Part shown: piece by piece, positions 14,807 to 23,835 of the stretch
How the letters are laid out: each line of letters begins with the position of its first letter
Position numbering within the stretch: position 1 is the first letter of the stretch
Assembly (NCBI GenBank): GCA_017552715.1
Contig: JAFZOW010000088.1
Location: 1 to 46,450, forward strand
Length of the DNA stretch: 46,450 bases
Direction: 5' to 3'
Source of the DNA: Lachnospiraceae bacterium
Lineage (GTDB): Bacteria > Bacillota > Clostridia > Lachnospirales > Lachnospiraceae
The notes under the pieces: generated by a model
What the model saw: only the letters and a program-made list of their open reading frames with translations
What the model was told of the DNA's origin: nothing
Database searches by the model: none
Program-made: the position numbers and the translations under genes

Positions 14807-15505
14807 CTACTTTCTGTCGCTGCGCCGCAGCTGTTTCTCCATCACTTTGATGAGCAGGGTGATGATCAGCACCAGCACGATATAGATCAGGGCCATCACC
14901 AGATAAGGCACCATGAATTCGTAGCTGTTACTGCCGATGTAGTTAAACGCCACATACAGATCGGAGGCTCCGACAAAGCTCACCACGGAAGTCTCTTTGA
15001 TCAGAGCGATGAATTCGTTGCCCAGGGTAGGCAGGATGTTCTTTACTGCCTGGGGGATAACGATCAGGCGCATGGTAGTGGCAAAGGACAGGCCCAGCGC
15101 CCTGCCGGCCTCCATCTGGCCTTTATCCACCGACTGTATGCCGCTGCGCATGATCTCGGAGATATAGGCACCGGAATTCAGCCCGAAAACCCATACCGAA
15201 ACTGTCACGCTGTTCATCTTCAAGCCCAGCAGGGGCAGCAGCACATAATAAAAAAGCAGCAGCTGCACCACCATGGGGGTTCCGCGGAAGAAACCCACAT
15301 AGAAAGAGCAGAAGCCGTTCAGCACTCTCGGCAGGCGCTTATACTTCGGTACCACACGCACCGTGGCGATGAGAGTACCGATGATGATACCGATGAAAAG
15401 ACCGAGCACCGCTATGATCAGCGTGTTGCCCAGTCCCTCCAGGACTTTTTTATAGCCGCCGTAGTCTATGAAATATTGTAAAAATCGATTGATCTTTGCC
15501 TGCAT
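14807..15505 (-). CDS. Polar amino acid ABC transporter permease (GlnP/HisM type)
   Basis: This 232-residue inner-membrane permease has about five membrane segments. The EAA loop that docks the ATPase is EAGRALGLSFATTMRLIVIPQA at about 133-154, and FFRGTPMVVQLLLFYY at about 72-87 is typical of the family. GAGG lies 5 bases before the ATG. Only one permease is present, so it probably acts as a homodimer. It is separated from its binding-protein gene by 384 bases that carry a structured repeat. Confidence 0.95.
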   Translation of the reverse strand: MQAKINRFLQYFIDYGGYKKVLEGLGNTLIIAVLGLFIGIIIGTLIATVRVVPKYKRLPRVLNGFCSFYVGFFRGTPMVVQLLLFYYVLLPLLGLKMNSVTVSVWVFGLNSGAYISEIMRSGIQSVDKGQMEAGRALGLSFATTMRLIVIPQAVKNILPTLGNEFIALIKETSVVSFVGASDLYVAFNYIGSNSYEFMVPYLVMALIYIVLVLIITLLIKVMEKQLRRSDRK

Positions 15506-15525
15506 AAAATCCTCAAACGGCCTCT

Positions 15526-15756
15526 GAGCATGTATTCATGCGACGACACAGCTCGCGCTCGGATCTCGCCACAGGATCTTCCCGCTGCCTGAACGATCGC
15601 ACATCTCCCCACATACGTGGGGCCCCTCATGTGCTCCAGGCAGCAGGCCCCTCCTCGTGGCTGGCTCGTAGCGGACGCTAAACTCGCAGGCGGCCTTACG
15701 GCCTGCTCGTTAAGCGCCGACGGCTCGATACGGTCGTCGCATTGAATACATGACTC
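15526..15756 (-). repeat. Structured modular intergenic element, copy 1 (modules A and B)
   Basis: This fills most of the 384-base gap (15506-15889) between binding protein and permease. The ends are a near-perfect inverted repeat: ATGTATTCATGCGACGAC at 15530-15547 and GTCGTCGCATTGAATACAT at 15733-15751, extendable by GAG/CTC. Inside are two hairpins. Module B uses GCCAC/GTGGC (15568-15572/15657-15661), GCTGCCTG/CAGGCAGC (15584-15591/15637-15644), GCACAT/ATGTGC (15599-15604/15629-15634) and CCCCAC-ATAC-GTGGGG (15607-15622). Module A folds CGCTAAAC with GTTAAGCG around GGCC-TTAC-GGCC (about 15675-15718). Strand is given as that of the operon. It could act as an RNA stabiliser/processing hairpin or be a MITE-like insertion. 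Confidence 0.8.
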
Positions 15757-15828
15757 ATCGGCCGTGTAAGTGTTTCGTTGGCGGTAAAAATATGGTCAAC
15801 TCGTAACAGAACTATGCAATCAGGCCGG

Positions 15829-15867
15829 GTACATTAACGCTGAATGTACATTACATTGAATACATGA
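15829..15867. repeat. Small hairpin and second copy of the element end
   Basis: GTACATT (15829-15835) and AATGTAC (15843-15849) form a perfect 7-bp stem. It is followed by CATTGAATACATGA (15854-15867), an exact direct copy of 15740-15753 in the right arm of the structured element. It lies about 23 bases past the stop of the binding-protein gene and could form an alternative partner for the left arm. Confidence 0.6.
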
Positions 15868-15889
15868 TGGCTTGGCCCTGTTTATTGTC

Positions 15890-16732
15890 TCACTGTAATG
15901 AATTAATAGATTCTGTAATGAACTTCGCGGGGGCGGCGTCGATGACCACGTAGTCCAGGTTGCCGTTGAGCAGATCCTGGACGGCCAGGGAGCCGTTCTT
16001 GTAACCTACGACGGTCATCTTGTAGCCGTCGAAGCCCCATTCCTCATCGCCTTCGCAGTAGAGCTTACCGGTGGTGCCGTTCTGCACACCTACCTTTGTG
16101 CTGTTATCCTTTCCGTTCAGGATGGCTTCGATGGCAGCGGCAGTCGTAGCGGAATCGAAGTCCGTATTATCGGAACGGACGATCAGCTTCTGGGAAGCTT
16201 CGTAGTAAGTATCGGTGAAGTTCACCATCTCCTTACGCTCTTCGGTAACGGTCAGGCCGCTCATGCCGATGTCGCTCTTCCCCTGCTGTACGGAAAGCAG
16301 CACGGAATCGAAGTCCATGTTCTGGATCACCAGCTCCTTGCCCAGATACTCCGCAAGACCGGCAGCGATCTCCATATCAATGCCCAGATAGTTCTCGCCC
16401 TCCATATACTCAAAAGGCGCGAAAGCCGCATTGGTGGCTACCAGCAGCTGGTCCTTGGAGGAATCCTCCACAGCGCTGGTCACCGGAGTAGGAGTGCCGT
16501 CGCCGAAATACTTCTCACAGATCCTGTCAAAAGTGCCGTCGGACATGATGCGGGAGATATACTCATTTGTCTTTGTCAGCAGCTCACTCTGGTTCTGATC
16601 CACACCAAAAGCATATTGCTCGGTGGTCAGATCCACATCGATGACCTTGGCAGTGAGCTTGCCTGCGCCCGAGGCGCCGCAGCCGCTCAGCAAAAGAGCG
16701 GCGGTAAGAATTACGGTTAAAAACTTTTTCAT
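15890..16732 (-). CDS. Amino acid ABC transporter binding lipoprotein, circularly permuted
   Basis: This 280-residue protein has signal peptide and lipobox LLLSGC (Cys18), so it is an exported lipid-anchored binding protein of the SBP_bac_3 family. The core begins at about residue 95 (QLLVATNAAFAPFEYMEG) and ends at VVIDAAPAKFITESINSLQ, where normal members still need their last 50 residues. That missing part (LTTEQYAFGVDQNQ to DGTFDRICEKYFG) is instead found at residues 35-77, right after the lipobox, joined by a linker DGTPTPVTSAVEDSSKD. The order is therefore permuted while all parts are kept. I believe related Clostridia carry the same form. It belongs with the permease and ATPase downstream. 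AAAGGAGGG precedes the ATG. Confidence 0.9.
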   Translation of the reverse strand: MKKFLTVILTAALLLSGCGASGAGKLTAKVIDVDLTTEQYAFGVDQNQSELLTKTNEYISRIMSDGTFDRICEKYFGDGTPTPVTSAVEDSSKDQLLVATNAAFAPFEYMEGENYLGIDMEIAAGLAEYLGKELVIQNMDFDSVLLSVQQGKSDIGMSGLTVTEERKEMVNFTDTYYEASQKLIVRSDNTDFDSATTAAAIEAILNGKDNSTKVGVQNGTTGKLYCEGDEEWGFDGYKMTVVGYKNGSLAVQDLLNGNLDYVVIDAAPAKFITESINSLQ

Positions 16733-16776
16733 AATATTTCCCTCCTTTTGCTTATTCCCTGAGTCAGCATCGCAAG

Positions 16777-16813
16777 GAATCTCCCCACATACGTGGGTCC
16801 CCCCTTAAGATTC
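16777..16813 (-). repeat. Minimal copy of the structured element at the carB 3' end
   Basis: GAATCT (16777-16782) pairs with AGATTC (16808-16813) and encloses CCCAC-ATAC-GTGGG (16784-16797). The apex differs from that of copy 1 by a single base over more than 20 bases. The outer stem overlaps the last codons and stop of carB, between carB and the amino acid binding-protein gene. There is no T-run, so it is more likely a processing or stabilising hairpin than a terminator. Confidence 0.65.
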
Positions 16814-19800
16814 GTGCCAACTCTGCAATGATCTCACATCGCTGCGGCCGTGTTTCTTGACGTGGCGGATACCGTCTGCTGCCGCGGCTGCCGCAGCCAT
16901 GGTGGTGATATAAGGGATACGCGCCTTGATGGCGGCCTTACGCAGGTAACTGTCGTCGTTCACGCTCTCCTTGCCGGCGGGCGTGTTCACGATCAGCTGG
17001 ATGTCACCGTTGGTGATCAGATCCAGGATGTTGGGACGTCCCTCATAAAGCTTCTTCACCTTCTCCACAGGGATGCCGGCCTTATCGATCAGGTCGCAGG
17101 TGGTACCGGTGGCCAGCAGCTTGAAGCCGGCTTCATGGAAGGCCTGGGCCACACCCACGGCTTCGGGCTTATCCTTACGGTTTACGGAGATGAGCACCGT
17201 TCCTTCCAGAGGCAGGCCTGCATTGGCGGCTTCCTCCGCCTTATAGAAGGCGCCTGCAAGGGACTTGCTGATGCCCAGCACCTCACCGGTGGAGCGCATC
17301 TCGGGCCCGAGGATCGGATCCACTTCCTGGAACATATTGAAGGGGAATACGGCTTCCTTCACGCCGTAGTACTGGATATCTCTCTCCTTCAGCTCGGGTA
17401 CCGGCGAAGGACGGCCCGTAAGGCTGCCCGTGATGATATCCGTAGCCAGGGGCACCATGCGGATGCCGCAGACCTTGGAGACCAAAGGCACGGTACGGGA
17501 AGCACGGGGATTGGCTTCCAGCACATAGACCGTATCGTTCTCAATAGCGTACTGCATGTTCATCAGACCCACCACATGCATCTCCTCGGCGATCTTCCGG
17601 GTATATTCCTTAATGGTGGCCAGATGCTTATCATCGATGTGGCGGGAAGGGATCATGCAGGCCGAGTCACCGGAATGGATACCGGCAAGTTCGATGTGTT
17701 CCATGACTGCGGGAACGAATGCATGGGTGCCGTCGCTGATGGCATCGGCCTCGCACTCAAGTGCATGGTTCAGGAAACGGTCGATGAGGATGGGACGGTC
17801 GGGGGTCACACCCACGGCAGCACGCATGTAGTCCGCGATGCTCTCTTCATCGTATACCACTTCCATGCCGCGGCCGCCCAGCACGTAGGAAGGACGCACC
17901 ATCACGGGATAACCGATACGCGCGGCGATCTCCTTGGCTTCCTCCACGGTGGTGGCCATGCCGCTCTCGGGCATGGGGATCCCCAGCTTATCCATCATGG
18001 CGCGGAACTGGTCACGGTCTTCCGCCAGGTCGATGACCTCGGGCGAAGTGCCCAGGATGTTCACGCCGTTCTTCTTCAGATCCGCCGCAAGGTTCAGCGG
18101 TGTCTGTCCGCCGAACTGGGCGATGACGCCCACGGGCTTTTCCTTATGGTAGATGCTCAGCACATCCTCCAGGGTCAGCGGCTCGAAATAGAGCTTATCC
18201 GAGGTATCGTAGTCGGTGGACACGGTCTCGGGATTGCAGTTGACGATGATGGTCTCGAAGCCCAGCTTCTTAAGGCTCATGGCTGCATGTACGCAGCAGT
18301 AGTCAAATTCGATACCCTGGCCGATACGGTTGGGACCGCCACCTAAGATCATGATCTTTTTCTTATCGCTGGCTTCGGCTATGTCCTTATCCATATTGTA
18401 GCTGGAGTAGTAATAGCAGCTGTCCTCGGTGCCGGATACATGCACCTTATCCCAGTGCTCCTCGCAGCCTGCCGCAAGACGTGCATTGCGGATCTCATCC
18501 TCGGAAACGCTCAGGATCTCGCTTAAGTACTTATCCGCGAAGCCGTCCTTCTTAGCCTGCACCAGCTTATCCGCAGGAGGGACCTGACCCTTATATGCAG
18601 CCACCAGGGCTTCCTCTTCGTCCACCAGTTCCTTCATCTGCTCGATGAAATACTTCTTTACCTTGGTGAGCTCGTGGATCTCATCTACGCTCACGCCTTT
18701 ACGAAGAGCTTCGTACATCTGGAAGTGACGCTCGGAATTGGGGGTGACCAGCTTCTGCTTCAGTTCTTCCGCAGAAAGCTCGTTAAAGTTCTTCACATGA
18801 CCCAGACCGTAGCGGCCCTTTTCAAGGGAACGCACAGCCTTCTGGAAGGCCTCCTTATAGTTCTTACCGATGCTCATAACTTCGCCAACGGCGCGCATCT
18901 GGGTGCCCAGCTTATCCTCCACACCCTTGAACTTCTCAAAGGCCCAGCGGGCAAACTTCACAACCACATAGTCGCCGCCAGGTACGTACTTATCCAGCGT
19001 TCCGTACTTGCCGCAGGGGATCTCGGAAAGAGAAAGCCCGCTGGCCAGCATGGCGGAAACCAGGGCGATGGGGAAGCCCGTTGCCTTACTTGCCAGAGCG
19101 GAAGAACGGGAGGTACGGGGATTGATCTCGATAACGATGATACGATCGCTGACGGGATCGTGTGCAAACTGCACGTTCGTACCGCCGATGACCTGGATAC
19201 GGTCTACGATCTTATAGGCCTGCTCCTGCAGACGCTTCTGCAGATCCTCGCTGATGGTGAGCATGGGAGCCGTACAGAAGGAATCACCGGTGTGCACGCC
19301 CATGGGATCCACATTCTCGATAAAGCAGACGGTGATCATGTTTCCGTCCTTATCGCGGACCACCTCCAGCTCCAGCTCTTCCCAGCCGGCCACGCACTCT
19401 TCCACCAGTACCTGTCCCACAGGGCTGGCCTGCAGGCCTCTGGCGCAGACGGTCTTCAGCTCCTCCTTATTATAGACCAGGCCGCCGCCGGTGCCGCCCA
19501 TGGTATAAGCGGGGCGCAGCACCACCGGGTAACCCAGGCTGTCGGCGATCTTCAGCGCTTCCTCCACGCTGTAGCTCACTTCGCTGCGGGCCATGCCGAT
19601 GCCGAGGCTCTCCATGGTCTGCTTGAACTCGATACGGTCTTCACCGCGCTCGATGGCATCCACCTGCACGCCGATGACCTTTACTCCGTACTTATCCAGT
19701 ATTCCTCTGCGGTTCAGCTCGGCGCTTAAGTTTAAGCCCGACTGTCCGCCCAGGTTGGGAAGCAGCGCATCCGGCCGCTCCTTTTCTATGATCTGCTCCA

Positions 19801-20020
19801 GACGATCCGCATTGAGGGGCTCGATATAGGTAACATCGGCCATCTCCGGATCCGTCATGATCGTTGCCGGATTGGAGTTCACCAGGATGATGCGGTACCC
19901 CAGCTTCCGTAACGCTTTACAGGCCTGCGTTCCCGAATAATCGAATTCGCAGGCCTGCCCGATAATGATGGGTCCGCTCCCAATGATCAATACACTCTTG
20001 ATATCCGTTCTCTGTGCCAT
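16805..20020 (-). CDS. carB: Carbamoyl-phosphate synthase large subunit
   Basis: This 1071-residue enzyme makes carbamoyl phosphate from bicarbonate, ATP and ammonia, the last supplied by glutamine hydrolysis in the small subunit CarA, for pyrimidine and arginine synthesis. Two homologous ATP-grasp halves are visible: the first from VLIIGSGPIIIGQACEFDYSGTQA (about 11-34) with NPRTSRSSALASKATG, the second from IMILGGGPNRIGQGIEFDYC (about 555) with EANPRASRTVPLVSK. A MGS-like regulatory domain ends the protein (FKLLATGTT, about residue 955). Length is standard. GGGAGG in the last codons of livF serves as its site, with only 3 bases between genes. carA is not in the window. Confidence 0.97.
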   Translation of the reverse strand: MAQRTDIKSVLIIGSGPIIIGQACEFDYSGTQACKALRKLGYRIILVNSNPATIMTDPEMADVTYIEPLNADRLEQIIEKERPDALLPNLGGQSGLNLSAELNRRGILDKYGVKVIGVQVDAIERGEDRIEFKQTMESLGIGMARSEVSYSVEEALKIADSLGYPVVLRPAYTMGGTGGGLVYNKEELKTVCARGLQASPVGQVLVEECVAGWEELELEVVRDKDGNMITVCFIENVDPMGVHTGDSFCTAPMLTISEDLQKRLQEQAYKIVDRIQVIGGTNVQFAHDPVSDRIIVIEINPRTSRSSALASKATGFPIALVSAMLASGLSLSEIPCGKYGTLDKYVPGGDYVVVKFARWAFEKFKGVEDKLGTQMRAVGEVMSIGKNYKEAFQKAVRSLEKGRYGLGHVKNFNELSAEELKQKLVTPNSERHFQMYEALRKGVSVDEIHELTKVKKYFIEQMKELVDEEEALVAAYKGQVPPADKLVQAKKDGFADKYLSEILSVSEDEIRNARLAAGCEEHWDKVHVSGTEDSCYYYSSYNMDKDIAEASDKKKIMILGGGPNRIGQGIEFDYCCVHAAMSLKKLGFETIIVNCNPETVSTDYDTSDKLYFEPLTLEDVLSIYHKEKPVGVIAQFGGQTPLNLAADLKKNGVNILGTSPEVIDLAEDRDQFRAMMDKLGIPMPESGMATTVEEAKEIAARIGYPVMVRPSYVLGGRGMEVVYDEESIADYMRAAVGVTPDRPILIDRFLNHALECEADAISDGTHAFVPAVMEHIELAGIHSGDSACMIPSRHIDDKHLATIKEYTRKIAEEMHVVGLMNMQYAIENDTVYVLEANPRASRTVPLVSKVCGIRMVPLATDIITGSLTGRPSPVPELKERDIQYYGVKEAVFPFNMFQEVDPILGPEMRSTGEVLGISKSLAGAFYKAEEAANAGLPLEGTVLISVNRKDKPEAVGVAQAFHEAGFKLLATGTTCDLIDKAGIPVEKVKKLYEGRPNILDLITNGDIQLIVNTPAGKESVNDDSYLRKAAIKARIPYITTMAAAAAAADGIRHVKKHGRSDVRSLQSWHES

Positions 20021-20023
20021 GGA

Positions 20024-20734
20024 TCAACCTCCCAGATATGCTTTTTTTATGGCTTCACTTTCCAACAGTTCATTTGCTTTTCCTTCCATGCTGATCTTCC
20101 CGACCTCCAGTACATATGCACGGTCGGCAATGTTCAGCGCCATGCGGGCATTCTGCTCCACCAGAAGTATGGTGATGCCCTGGCTGTGACAGAACTCTAT
20201 GATGGAGAAAACCTCCTTCACCAGAAGAGGAGACAGGCCCATGGAGGGCTCGTCCATCAGGATCATGGTGGGTTTGCTCATCAGCGCACGGCCCATGGCC
20301 AGCATCTGCTGCTCGCCGCCGGACAGGGTTCCTGCCAGCTGGCTGCGACGCTCCTTCAGCCGCGGGAAATGCTGGTAGATCATCTCCAGCGTCTCCTCGG
20401 TCTCGGCGCTGTCCTTCCGGGTATAAGCTCCCAGACGCAGATTCTGCAGCACCGTCATCTCGGCAAAGACTCTCCGGCCTTCCGGCACATGAGCCATGCC
20501 CAGTCCCGTCAGCTTATAGCCCGGGATACGGCGCACGTCATTCCCTTCAAAAACTATGCTGCCGGCTGCCGCAGGGATCAGGCCGCTGATGGTATGCAGG
20601 ATCGTCGTCTTCCCCGCGCCGTTGGCGCCGATCAGAGCCACTATCTCGCCGGCTTCCACATGGAAGCTGACGCCCTTGATGGCCTTGATCATACCGTAAT
20701 TCACTTCCAGGTCTTTGACTTCCAACATGCTCAT
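20024..20734 (-). CDS. livF: Branched-chain amino acid ABC transporter ATP-binding protein LivF
   Basis: This 236-residue ATPase is one of the pair energising the branched-chain amino acid importer. It shows Walker A GANGAGKTTILH at about 36-47, signature LSGGEQQMLAMGRAL at about 137-151, Walker B MILMDEPSMGLSP and the switch His position replaced by Gln in LLVEQNARMALN, which is usual for LivF. Gap to livG is 6 bases; carB follows after 3 bases. Confidence 0.96.
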   Translation of the reverse strand: MSMLEVKDLEVNYGMIKAIKGVSFHVEAGEIVALIGANGAGKTTILHTISGLIPAAAGSIVFEGNDVRRIPGYKLTGLGMAHVPEGRRVFAEMTVLQNLRLGAYTRKDSAETEETLEMIYQHFPRLKERRSQLAGTLSGGEQQMLAMGRALMSKPTMILMDEPSMGLSPLLVKEVFSIIEFCHSQGITILLVEQNARMALNIADRAYVLEVGKISMEGKANELLESEAIKKAYLGG

Positions 20735-20740
20735 AGCCGT

Positions 20741-21505
20741 TTACTCACCAATATATGCCTTGATCACTTCCGGATCGCTGAGAACTTCCTTTGTAGCACC
20801 CTGTTTCAGCACCTGTCCGAAATTCAGCACTGTCAGTTCTTCACAGATCCCGCCCACCAGCTTCATATCATGCTCGATGAGCAGTATGGTCATATCAAAT
20901 TTATCCCGCACAAAGCGGATCGTATCCATCAGTTCCTGGGTCTCGTTGGGGTTCATGCCCGCCGCAGGCTCGTCCAGAAGCAGCAGCACGGGATCCGTCG
21001 CCAGCGCTCTTGCGATCTCCAGCTTACGCTGTTTTCCGTAAGGCAGATTGGAAGCAAGGGTAGCCGCTTCCCCGTCCAGGTCGAATACCTTCAGAAGTTC
21101 CATGGCACGCTCGTCCATGGCCGTTTCCTGCTTAAAGTATTTCGGCAGCCGCAGCACCGCGGTGATGGTACGGTAGGGATAGCGATGATGCAGGCCCAGC
21201 TTTACATTATCCAGAACGCTCAGATCCTTGAACAGGCGGATGTTCTGGAAGGTACGGGCGATGCCGTCGCGATTGATCTCGATGGTCTTATGGCCGGTGA
21301 TGTTACGGCCGTTCAGCAGGATGGCACCGTCGGTGGGCTTATACACCCCCGTGAGAAGATTAAATACCGTGGTCTTACCTGCCCCGTTGGGACCGATAAG
21401 GCCATAAAGCTGCCCTTTTTCGATGGAGAGGTTGAAGTCATCCACCGCCCGCAGGCCGCCGAAACTTATGCTCAGATTTTTTACTTCCAGTAAGGGCATA
21501 TTCAT
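20741..21505 (-). CDS. livG: Branched-chain amino acid ABC transporter ATP-binding protein LivG
   Basis: This 254-residue ATPase pairs with LivF. It shows Walker A GPNGAGKTTVFNLL at about 37-50, the LivG-specific insertion with IARTFQNIRLFKDLSVLDNV, signature LPYGKQRKLEIARAL, Walker B LLLLDEPAAGMNP and switch LLIEHDMKLV. Two start codons are possible (21505 and 21499); both have only a weak GGAAAAG site, unlike most genes here. It is preceded by a 239-base gap holding copy 2 of the structured element. Confidence 0.95.
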   Translation of the reverse strand: MNMPLLEVKNLSISFGGLRAVDDFNLSIEKGQLYGLIGPNGAGKTTVFNLLTGVYKPTDGAILLNGRNITGHKTIEINRDGIARTFQNIRLFKDLSVLDNVKLGLHHRYPYRTITAVLRLPKYFKQETAMDERAMELLKVFDLDGEAATLASNLPYGKQRKLEIARALATDPVLLLLDEPAAGMNPNETQELMDTIRFVRDKFDMTILLIEHDMKLVGGICEELTVLNFGQVLKQGATKEVLSDPEVIKAYIGE

Positions 21506-21518
21506 TCTTTTCCGCTTC

Positions 21519-21721
21519 GGAAGCTCTTATTCGTGCTTCGACACGCTTTCGCTCCGTTGCTCACGTTCGAATTGCGGTACATAGTCACAGGTTCTTCCCG
21601 CTGCCTGTGCGTCGCATGCATCCCCCACTACCGTGGGGCCCCACACATGCTCCAGTCAGCGGGCCCCTCCTCGTGACTGTGCCAACGCTCGCAAAGGGTC
21701 TCGCATCGAAAAAGAGCTTCC
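21519..21721 (-). repeat. Structured modular intergenic element, copy 2 (module B)
   Basis: It lies between livM and livG and fills the 21506-21744 gap. Ends: GGAAGCTCTTATTCGTGC (21519-21536) and GCATCGAAAAAGAGCTTCC (21703-21721) are complementary. Module B keeps all stems of copy 1 with compensating changes: GTCAC/GTGAC (21584-21588/21673-21677), CCCGCTGCCTG/CAGTCAGCGGG (21597-21607/21653-21663), GCATG/CATGC (21614-21618/21646-21650) and CCCCAC-TACC-GTGGGG (21623-21638). Module A is absent. Confidence 0.8.
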
Positions 21722-21744
21722 TACGCTGGTGTATGATGATAATT

Positions 21745-22800
21745 TCAGCTTTCTTGTTTCTGTTTATTCTTACTCTTAAAAACTCTTTCGCGCCAGGCGC
21801 GGGCGGCGGGGGCCCAGTTCCAGAGCATCACGGCGATGAGGATCACGGAGTAGATGAGCATACGGTAATTGCTCAGGTTCCCCAGGCCGCGGAGCATCTC
21901 GGGCAGGGCATAGAGCAGGGCCGCCGCGATCACGGAACCGCGGATGGAGCCTATGCCTCCCAGCACCACATAAACCAGGATCATAATGGACACATTATAT
22001 CCGAAGTAGGTGGATGCCGCCGTCAGTGTACTGGTATTATGCGCAAAGAGCACACCCACGGTACCTGCGATAGCCGCAGATACGGTGAAAGCAAGCATCT
22101 TATATTTTGTGATATCGATACCGATGGATTCCGCCGCGATGCGGTTATCCCTGATACTCATGATGGCACGGCCCGTACGGGAATTCACCATATGGTAGAT
22201 CACCAGAAGTGTGATGAGCAGCACCAGCATGGCAATAAGGAATTTGGAATCGGTGGGCACACCCTGTATGCCCATGGCACCGTTGATCAGCATCTTTCCT
22301 TCGCCCTGCAGGGGGAAGCTCTTCAGGGAGATATGCACTCCCGCCTCGTCCTTACCCAGGTAGATGGCTGCAAGGATGTTCTTGATGATCTCGCCGAAGG
22401 CCAGGGTCACGATGGCCAGATAGTCACCGTTTAAGCGTAATACGGGTATCCCGATGAGAAAACCGAAAAGAGCGGCCACAGCCGTTCCGATGAGCAATGC
22501 GATAAAGAAGCGCAGGCCTGCAGGCATGGTGCTTTCCTTCATAGCAACGGAAAACAGCGCCGAAGAAAAGGCTCCGACACACATAAAGCCCGCATGGCCG
22601 AGACTCAGGTCTCCCAGAAAACCTACCACCAGGTTCAAGGAAACCGCCGCCGTAGCGTAATAACAGATGGGCACCAGCAGGCCCTTGGTATGGCTCTTCA
22701 GGTTCCCGGTCTTATCCAGTATGGTGATCACGATATAAAAAAGCACCACGATACCGCAGGTGATGAGTTCCTGTTTGGTTGTCTTTTTAAGCTTTCCCAT
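21745..22800 (-). CDS. livM: Branched-chain amino acid ABC transporter permease LivM
   Basis: This 351-residue membrane protein has about ten hydrophobic segments. The family features are GHAGFMCVGAFSSALF near residue 70, YLAIVTLAFGEIIKNI near 130 and GRAIMSIRDNRIAAESIGI near 215 (the cytosolic loop that meets the ATPases). The start overlaps the stop of livH by one base (TGATG), which indicates translational coupling. It forms a heterodimer with LivH. Confidence 0.95.
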   Translation of the reverse strand: MGKLKKTTKQELITCGIVVLFYIVITILDKTGNLKSHTKGLLVPICYYATAAVSLNLVVGFLGDLSLGHAGFMCVGAFSSALFSVAMKESTMPAGLRFFIALLIGTAVAALFGFLIGIPVLRLNGDYLAIVTLAFGEIIKNILAAIYLGKDEAGVHISLKSFPLQGEGKMLINGAMGIQGVPTDSKFLIAMLVLLITLLVIYHMVNSRTGRAIMSIRDNRIAAESIGIDITKYKMLAFTVSAAIAGTVGVLFAHNTSTLTAASTYFGYNVSIMILVYVVLGGIGSIRGSVIAAALLYALPEMLRGLGNLSNYRMLIYSVILIAVMLWNWAPAARAWRERVFKSKNKQKQES

Positions 22801-23687
22801 CAGACCTTCTCCTGCAGCTTCCGCCCCATCAGGCCCGTAGGTCTTACCAGGAGCACGATGATCAGTATGGTGAACACAATGGCGTCCGCCAGCTGTGTAG
22901 AGATGAAACGCTTACTTAAGCTTTCCGCCACGCCCAGCAGCAGTCCGCCGATCATGGCACCGGGAATGGAACCGATACCTCCCAGCACCGCCGCCACAAA
23001 AGCTTTGATACCCGGCATGGCACCGGTATAAGGTGTAAGTACCGGATAGGCTGAGCAGAGCAGCGCTCCAGCGATGGCTGCCAGTCCGGAGCCGATGGCG
23101 AAGGTCAGGGAGATGGTCTTATTTACATCAATACCCATGAGGGTCGCCGCACCTTTATCTTCGGAAACGGCCAGCATGGCCTGGCCGGCTTTTGTCTTAT
23201 TTATGAAGAGCTGCAGTGCCAGCAGGATCACTGCGCCCGTAAGTATCGTAATGATGGTCACGCCCTGGATCTTCAGCTGTCCGTCGGCAAGGCTGATGCC
23301 TTCCCACTTTACCACGCTGGTGAAGGATTTCGGATTGGCAGTGAAGATCTGCAGCGAGATGTTCTGCAGAAAATAGCTCATCCCGATGGCGGTGATGAGC
23401 ACGGCAAGATTGGAAGTGGCCCCGCGCAGGGGCTTATAGGCGATACGCTCGGTAAGGATACCGAGGATGGTACAGCCCACCATAGCAAAAAGTATGGCCA
23501 GCAGGGGGTTGAACCCCCAGCTGATCATACCGGTATAAACCAGATAGCCGCCCACCATGATCACGTCACCATGGGCGAAGTTTAACATTTTAGCGATGCC
23601 GTACACCATGGTATACCCGAGGGCAATGATCGCGTAGATACTGCCCAGACTTATACCGCTGATGAAGGTGTTGAGAAAATCAAGCAT
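22800..23687 (-). CDS. livH: Branched-chain amino acid ABC transporter permease LivH
   Basis: This 295-residue membrane protein has about eight hydrophobic segments. It shows the LivH features GISLGSIYAIIALGYTMVYGI at the start, LNFAHGDVIMVGGY near residue 35 and the coupling loop KGAATLMGIDVNKTISLTFAIGS near 183-205. The gene lies after copy 3 of the structured element and has only a weak CAGGG ribosome binding site, so its expression may be set well below that of the binding protein. Confidence 0.95.
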   Translation of the reverse strand: MLDFLNTFISGISLGSIYAIIALGYTMVYGIAKMLNFAHGDVIMVGGYLVYTGMISWGFNPLLAILFAMVGCTILGILTERIAYKPLRGATSNLAVLITAIGMSYFLQNISLQIFTANPKSFTSVVKWEGISLADGQLKIQGVTIITILTGAVILLALQLFINKTKAGQAMLAVSEDKGAATLMGIDVNKTISLTFAIGSGLAAIAGALLCSAYPVLTPYTGAMPGIKAFVAAVLGGIGSIPGAMIGGLLLGVAESLSKRFISTQLADAIVFTILIIVLLVRPTGLMGRKLQEKV

Positions 23688-23715
23688 TCGGTTTTTACCC
23701 TGTGTTCCCGGCTCC

Positions 23716-23835
23716 GGAACTGCCGTTCATGCTCGACACGCTCCCGCTCCGCTGCTCATGTAGCGGACACTAAACTCGCTTCGCTCGTTAAGTGCCGACA
23801 CTCGCAGAGGGTCTCGCATTGAAGCGGCAGATTCC
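23716..23835 (-). repeat. Structured modular intergenic element, copy 3 (module A)
   Basis: It lies in the 215-base gap between the liv binding-protein gene and livH. Ends: GGAACTGCCGTTCATGC (23716-23732) and GCATTGAAGCGGCAGATTCC (23816-23835) are complementary apart from three single-base bulges. Module A folds CACTAAAC (about 23767-23774) with GTTAAGTG (about 23786-23794); in copy 1 the equivalent pair is CGCT/AGCG, a compensatory change. Module B is absent. The rest of the gap (23836-23902) is AT-rich with no gene. Confidence 0.78.

Follow-up and report, generated by a model that had tools for sequence, protein, structure and literature searches.

The window, a stretch of 46,450 nucleotides from a Lachnospiraceae bacterium (contig JAFZOW010000088.1) that was analysed as a whole, holds three members of a widespread group of repeated hairpin DNA modules that lie after genes and between operon genes of gut and rumen bacteria. 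The reading preferred here, at a probability of roughly 0.6, is that of a modular, chromosomal, probably mobile and non-coding palindromic DNA repeat, the arms of which are kept complementary by arm-to-arm copying of DNA.

An earlier note made from the letters alone had placed three copies with a common frame (TTC-TGC ... GCA-TGAA) at 15526-15756, 21519-21721 and 23716-23835, with module A in copies 1 and 3 and module B in copies 1 and 2, and its coordinates, frame and modules all hold (Table 1). Each copy in the window is enclosed by an outer inverted repeat, sometimes imperfect, which differs in sequence from copy to copy and reads CATGTATTCA/TGAATACATG in copy 1. The covariance model R1 scored no A core in copy 2, where module B sits inside remnants of the A frame. 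All three copies are intergenic with neighbouring genes on the minus strand. Copy 1 is flanked by genes for an amino-acid binding protein (15890-16732) and a permease (14807-15505), and copies 2 and 3 lie within a liv-like (branched-chain amino acid transporter) gene cluster, the former between livM-like and livG-like genes and the latter between a liv-like binding-protein gene and a livH-like gene.

Table 1. Positions of the copies and modules of the element in the window.
Feature	Position	Strand	Details
Copy 1	15517..15765	+	Outer inverted repeat ACGGCC..TGAGCATGTATTC / GAATACATGACTCA..CGGCCGT around frame, module B and module A
Module B, copy 1	15570..15663	+	CACAGG...GTGGC; inserted after ATCTCGC
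Module A core hairpin, copy 1	15666..15726	+	Covariance model R1, 73.4 bits
Copy 2	21519..21721	+	Outer inverted repeat GGAAGCTCTT/AAGAGCTTCC, frame, A remnants, module B
A remnants, copy 2	left ~21530-21565, right ~21681-21710	+	Read by eye
Module B, copy 2	21586..21677	+	End pair GTCAC/GTGAC
Copy 3, minimal, A only	23716..23835	+	Outer inverted repeat GGAACTGCCG/CGGCAGATTCC, frame, A core
Module A core hairpin, copy 3	23758..23804	+	Covariance model R1, 60.4 bits
Lone B-tip hairpin TCTCCCCACATACGTGGG	16779..16802	+	Basal stem differs (GAATC/GATTC), extending just past the range

The copies form long imperfect hairpins in which modules are nested. An outer stem, for the most part peculiar to the individual copy, is followed inwards by the frame, the conserved A core and a tip subject to wholesale replacement, and module B may be inserted in the left arm. 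In this genome the A core measures 47-82 nt, and the nested structures reach about 120-350 nt overall. The consensus of the A core is CGT-AG-CGG-A-CRCT-A-ARC-TC-GC, tip, GC-TC-GYT-A-AGYG-CCG-ACG. Its bulged A and its A.A and TC/TC mismatches are largely conserved, the bulged A being absent from some cores in which CGGTGCT replaces CGGACGCT (e.g. L142, L143, L145 and L180-L188). Two points of the A arm carry module B, which also occurs twice in tandem and by itself. Two composite copies (C50) agree closely across two B modules and the A core, and their end and tip stems differ yet stay complementary. A target-site duplication, as expected of a MITE (non-autonomous transposon), was looked for at module B: GC borders it at either end in 10 of 13 distinct copies, and the 2-bp duplication that this suggests holds in just two of five distinct contexts.

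Building a covariance model and searching the genome and its relatives, as the earlier note had suggested, yielded 28 A cores in this genome, and the family is present in 23 of 35 genomes of the genus, in 85 of 299 sampled Lachnospiraceae genomes (84 of 298 genera) and in 7 of 391 genomes of a class-wide sample, the own genome being counted in all three samples and the class-wide matches falling in the home family only. By the record titles of its matches, the family is confined in these samples to Lachnospiraceae. Carriage by plasmids or phages was rejected, as one A copy used as blastn query gave no match to plasmids or phages and a single IMG/VR contig matched by exact pattern. The statement that no named family matches has also stood: Rfam gave no match in the window at the gathering score and three weak matches in five loci at E<=1, none of them within the element, and a named RNA family was rejected. 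No description of the element was found in the open-access papers searched.

Several known systems invite comparison. Integron attC sites, which have R and L boxes and an integron integrase, were considered for likeness in conserved extrahelical bases and a variable tip only. BOX elements are modular in build. Together with RUP and SPRITE of Streptococcus pneumoniae they are interspersed, have extensive secondary structure and were judged parasitic, with a likely effect on co-transcribed genes (PMC3049150); they are likened to the present element by description rather than sequence, both being interspersed and structured but from different clades. REPs with an unpaired GTAG tag, 20-40 bp long and mobilised by RAYT (PMC3733652), are many-copy interspersed extragenic palindromes with conserved unpaired bases, as is the element here. 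In contrast to theirs, the T of its GTAG-like letters is paired with A, a pair replaced by C-G in 4 of 19 and 13 of 54 rows with letters, and Y1_Tnp (PF01797, the sole transposase profile searched) had no match in this genome, compared with 5 of 14 in the control set; a GTAG REP/RAYT system was ruled out on both grounds, and the PF01797 search of this genome tied no transposase or other mobilising gene to the element. CGTC REPs, with stems of 8-9 bp, loops of 4-5 and an unpaired tag (PMC3733652), are, like the element, palindromes without known transposase, and the A core read on its minus strand begins with CGTC; here, however, these letters are paired (columns 2-4 with 58-60) and the core alone takes up 47-82 nt. 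The terms 'Firmicutes', 'Clostrid' and 'Lachnospir' do not occur in the main text of that paper. Among candidate structured RNAs from human microbiomes, 250 of 3,161 were palindromic, 230 of these being predicted terminators (PMC8040213), and 'Lachnospiraceae' has no occurrence in the main text of that report.

All three window copies fold better than dinucleotide shuffles (z -8.65, -5.47 and -3.13 for copies 1, 2 and 3), with 0, 0 and 1 of 200 shuffles folding as well. Paired changes between copies (GCCAC/GTGGC versus GTCAC/GTGAC, GCACAT/ATGTGC versus GCATG/CATGC, CGCT/AGCG versus CACT/AGTG), from which the earlier note had argued for selection on RNA or DNA structure, are present in the sequence, and the covariation is real, lying above shuffled and slid controls. 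Cells with double changes numbered 100 in the A core versus 22.6 in shuffles, and 19 in module B versus 4.6. One-sided cells were 9 and 3, respectively, and frame plus core gave 25 double and 2 one-sided cells, in none of their pairs variation being confined to one side.

The copies are not merely identical transposed ones, a pattern that the earlier note had raised. Arms pair far better within their own copy than with the arms of other copies. In an alignment anchored at the core with stiffer gaps, own pairing averaged 7.7, 6.6 and 7.6 and cross pairing 2.1, 1.2 and 1.2 in three sets of 18, 24 and 12 hand-chosen copies (copies of the own genome without module B, plus selections from relatives). 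None of 20,000 permutations reached the own-pairing mean in any set, and 84 control positions averaged 1.4 with a maximum of 6.0. With looser gaps, own pairing exceeded every cross pairing in 9/18, 15/24 and 9/12 copies. This alignment replaced a loose-window test of the outermost arms, which performed poorly (own above all others in 18/27, and in 8/27 for the outermost part).

Six orthologous sites, those of the three window copies and of L035, L039 and L042, were compared with relatives lacking the element, in which 30 stretches comprising 16,852 bases contained no R1 match at E<=0.1; L031, L032 and L026 lacked usable flank pairs. No insertion polymorphic within a species was seen among these genomes, which comprise one per species and of which the nearest relative is about 80% identical, so that gain and loss are indistinguishable at the sites without the element. 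Relatives were free of any hairpin at the copy 2 site (G015), the L035 site and most L042 sites, and it is thus not established that the outer stems derive from insertion into a pre-existing hairpin. By eye, plain hairpins were seen at the copy 1 site (G030, G013) and at the copy 3 site (G023, G013, G030, G009). The L039 site carries terminator-like hairpins in G030 and G013 and other long nested palindromes in G011, G015 and G023.

In an RNA made from a single strand, G.U would be expected to be tolerated and A.C not. Isolated mismatches comprised 48 G.T and 58 A.C versus 8,863 Watson-Crick columns, with 24, 26 and 5,099 in a first set of 80 copies without module B and 24, 32 and 3,764 in a second set, another 60 copies taken from ten other genera; as a mismatch was counted only where two pairs adjoined it on either side, the true share of G.T is somewhat higher. 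The first set goes back to 96 of the 153 R1 matches, less those with identical cores and those that carry module B. It also showed 184 other isolated mismatches, probably including the A.A of the core. G.T and A.C being about equal, selection on RNA, as part of the earlier claim, is unsupported. The paired changes look as if they belonged to a DNA palindrome and not to an RNA gene, and the data favour DNA structure, the alternative that the earlier note had itself offered.

A cis-acting role in mRNA, in which intercistronic or 3' UTR hairpins would be selected as RNA for mRNA stability or differential expression, as is reportedly the case for the malE-malF REP of E. coli, is rather improbable. 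It would suit the three window copies, which all lie in clusters of co-directional genes and in two cases follow a binding-protein gene, and the plain hairpins of relatives at the copy 1 and copy 3 sites. Read in the direction of the flanking genes, G.U exceeded A.C by 17:7 in the first set, but the second set gave 18:16 (35:23 together, p 0.15); this excess leans to the RNA side without reaching significance and leaves room for some RNA selection. Further points against such a role are the scarcity of isolated G.T, the several sites that are hairpin-free in relatives, and orientation, which relative to codirectional genes was the same in 15 and opposite in 28 copies of the first set (p 0.066), 24 and 14 in the second and 39:42 overall, with no consistent strand.

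In this genome, 21 flanking gaps were tandem, 5 convergent and none divergent (26 classed, two more unclassed), as compared to 21 tandem, 0 convergent and 5 divergent among the element-free gaps of the analysed DNA, in which overlapping loci may have been counted twice (p 0.008 for convergent versus divergent). Divergent genes occurred at 7 of 59 classed sites in the set from other genera and at 2 of 54 in another set, and the 3' bias of this genome is therefore not absolute. Intrinsic transcription terminators enlarged by nesting could account for the lack of divergent gaps in this genome, for the short T runs (3 to 7) after four copies (L040, L041, L043, L046) and for the terminator-like hairpins at the L039 site. 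Such an origin is nevertheless hardly probable. Termination within the liv-like cluster would cut the cluster, and none of the three window copies has a terminator-like site in gene direction, which ruled out an intrinsic terminator in that direction for these copies.

For the preferred reading of a mobile palindromic DNA repeat, the element would spread as folded single-stranded DNA, handled by a putative structure-specific enzyme that might recognise the unpaired bases of the core. Complementarity of the arms would be upheld mainly by arm-to-arm templated correction, i.e. template switching in replication, which would give double changes with few G.U intermediates. Template switching has been described for RNA genes, where it produces paired changes in one event and keeps stems perfect (PMC8794818); the present proposal extends it to a dispersed repeat whose mismatches are largely fixed. 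Insertion would be tolerated at 3' ends and in the gaps within operons, where the hairpin, once transcribed, may attenuate the mRNA or protect it.

A purely mutational account, with palindromes arising and being renewed by template switching without a dedicated mobilising enzyme or function, would also agree with the few one-sided changes, the similar numbers of G.T and A.C, the wholesale replacement of stems and the other nested palindromes at the L039 site. It leaves unexplained how a strongly conserved core of 59 positions came to be dispersed over 84 of 298 genera and why module B occurs at two defined points of the arm, and is given little chance. More speculatively, the family might represent an undescribed kind of self-propagating folded-DNA element, a proposal regarded as doubtful. 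A structure-specific enzyme acting on the single-stranded core hairpin would put the core, and module B, into other hairpins, or make the flanks complementary on insertion, and so give rise to private outer stems in nearly every copy and to nested palindromes at gene ends across the family.

Covariation is widely read as a mark of functional RNA, and here strong covariation seems to derive from a DNA palindrome with strand-symmetric mismatches. The family, a large natural example, could thus be used as a test set for RNA selection versus template-switch correction. The element, which matched no Rfam family in the scanned stretches, may exert a common influence on operon expression in Lachnospiraceae, and it possibly points to a new enzyme handling hairpin DNA in a major family of gut bacteria.

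The three copies of the repeat, and their make-up from a common frame with two exchangeable hairpin modules, A and B, were found as the earlier note had described them (table). All three folded better than their dinucleotide shuffles, and each is surrounded by an outer inverted repeat whose sequence differs from copy to copy. From its sequence, copy 2 reads as the A frame with the core largely swapped for B, and no core was scored in it by R1, a covariance model built from 19 diverse A cores. The second right-end frame lies within a small hairpin, 114 bases past that of copy 1.

Repeat copies and an additional frame in the window, with folding energy relative to dinucleotide shuffles
Feature	Position	Modules	Folding z
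Copy 1	15526-15756	A, B	-8.65
Copy 2	21519-21721	B	-5.47
Copy 3	23716-23835	A	-3.13
Second right-end frame (CATTGAATACATGATGGC)	15854-15881		

The consensus of the A core is CGT-[AG]-CGG-[A]-CRCT-[A]-ARC-[TC]-GC, tip, GC-[TC]-GYT-[A]-AGYG-CCG-ACG, and its bulged A was invariant in a 19-row alignment (A5) and absent from some copies elsewhere. In A5, 99.3% of 285 cells were paired and 6 of 15 pairs were altered on both sides. A larger alignment of 58 distinct rows (A6), which were fitted to R1 and are hence biased towards it, was paired in 98.9% of 824 cells, with 100 double-change cells vs 22.6 in shuffles, nine one-sided and nine unpaired. Frame and core of the 12 own-genome copies without B (A2) gave 25 vs 7.9, with two one-sided and nine unpaired among 383 cells and no pair varying on one side only, and module B gave 19 vs 4.6, with three one-sided and 26 unpaired among 376 cells. 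The observed double-change counts and covariation scores were reached in none of 500 shuffles, which supports the covarying stems proposed in the earlier note. Further pair types showed no excess, being as high in 498 (A5), 434 (A2) and 194 (B) of 500 shuffles. As shuffles are lenient where copies are related, slid controls and an anchored arm test were added; in the latter, pairing beyond the core was higher within than across copies in all three hand-chosen sets (18, 24 and 12 copies).

Selection on RNA (or DNA) structure had been proposed to maintain this pairing. Left arms were aligned to the reverse complement of right arms with an equal score for every mismatch, and only transition-type mismatches with two pairs on either side were counted. 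In element orientation, G.T and A.C numbered 24 and 26 in 80 copies, 24 and 32 in another 60 copies drawn from ten other genera, and three and six over all pairs of module B alone. Mismatches of both types were rare and symmetric, consistent with a DNA-level process. In the sense of codirectional flanking genes, which were called approximately by a custom codon-score script trained on window genes or, for the second set, on each genome's long ORFs, the counts were 17 and 7 in a first set (35 copies overlapping with the 80; eight more containing B were skipped) and 18 and 16 in a second (38 copies). Orientation to these genes was the same in 15 and opposite in 28 cases in the first set, and 24 and 14 in the second. 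Of the two proposed alternatives, DNA structure is favoured by the data. The pooled lean towards G.T (35:23) is not significant (p 0.15), and RNA-level selection may keep some of the pairing.

The favoured reading (roughly 60%) is a DNA-hairpin repeat that is probably mobile and whose arms are kept complementary through template switching. A mobilising enzyme would act on it, a single-stranded intermediate would be formed, and mRNA might be affected. REP and BOX repeats are known relatives in kind. The element failed the tested features of both GTAG and CGTC REPs and is thus regarded as a separate variant of interspersed palindromic repeats.

Module B spans 92-93 nt, from CACAGG to GTGRC, and lies in the left arm after ATCTCGC or CTCGCGC. 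Tandem pairs occur at two places in contig C50, B without A in C31 (L002) and, diverged, in C108 (L014), and a fragment in C116. Of 13 distinct copies of B, 10 are flanked by GC on either side, compared with just two of five distinct contexts. The contexts carry more weight, because a single composite may be the ancestor of many B-plus-A copies. Over about 350 columns, the two C50 composites differ at 24 aligned and 14 gap positions, chiefly in the end and tip stems, and each pair of arms is still complementary.

With copy 2 as query, 20 matches at E<=1 were found in the own genome (3.43 Mb), of which 14, including itself, span most of module B; copy 1 gave 54 at E<=10, the weakest at chance level. 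The covariance search of the genome and its relatives suggested in the earlier note was run with R1 and recovered 28 own-genome cores at E<=1 (weakest 3.8e-7; 150 of 1,015 first-look candidates scored). Counting the own genome each time, matches were present in 23 of 35 genomes within the genus (E<=0.01), 85 of 299 in a family sample (E<=1e-4; 18 candidates scored per genome) and seven of 391 in a class-wide sample. All seven bear the home-family label, under which 16 genomes are listed, and no genome outside that family in the class-wide sample gave an R1 match. An exact-pattern search recovered 10 stretches titled Lachnospiraceae MAGs. Several copies (L175, L190, L191, L229 and L230) are no more than ~280 bases from the end of a contig, so the size of the family may be underestimated in draft assemblies.

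At L279, L280, L281, L282 and L135/L139 (G000:C125), A copies form inverted pairs with a span of 228-559 bp. At L279 and L280 both members share one tip, which differs between the two loci, as might result from local gene conversion. Short hairpins bearing the tip motif CTAARYTCGC...GCTCRYTAAG form arrays in three relatives (L175, G015:C39; L174, G013:C17; L176, G019:C56), with a spacing of 56-58 bases in L175 and L174. At L054 (G023:C57) a second frame, CCACATGTGTTCGG...CCGAACACATGCTGG, encloses an A copy. One outer stem (GGACGGGATATG) is common to four A copies (L132, L137, L138 and L141 on C124, C16, C19 and C76); the C124 copy lies within a larger repeat, GGTCCTTTTGTC...GACAAAAGGACC, and those on C16 and C19 within a diverged form of it.

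Orthologous sites were compared in relatives; at those of the window copies, hairpins were read by eye. At the copy 3 site, two bases separate the genes in G015, and short plain hairpins occur in G023, G013, G030 and G009. The copy 1 site has plain hairpins in G030 and G013 and none in G011, and the copy 2 site in G015 has 31 bases without a hairpin. Hairpins were also absent at the L035 site from G011 and G023, and at the L042 site from G015, G030 and G023, with a weak imperfect one in G011. R1 found no match in the 30 stretches fetched, so the element was either gained in the own genome or lost repeatedly; judged from these sequences, its absence from several relatives at each site makes gain the likelier of the two. 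The L039 site carries terminator-like hairpins in G030 and G013 and other nested palindromes in G015, G011 and G023. These long nested palindromes with a different sequence at an orthologous site (L248, L249, L251) suggest that the growth of such structures may be a general feature of the genus.
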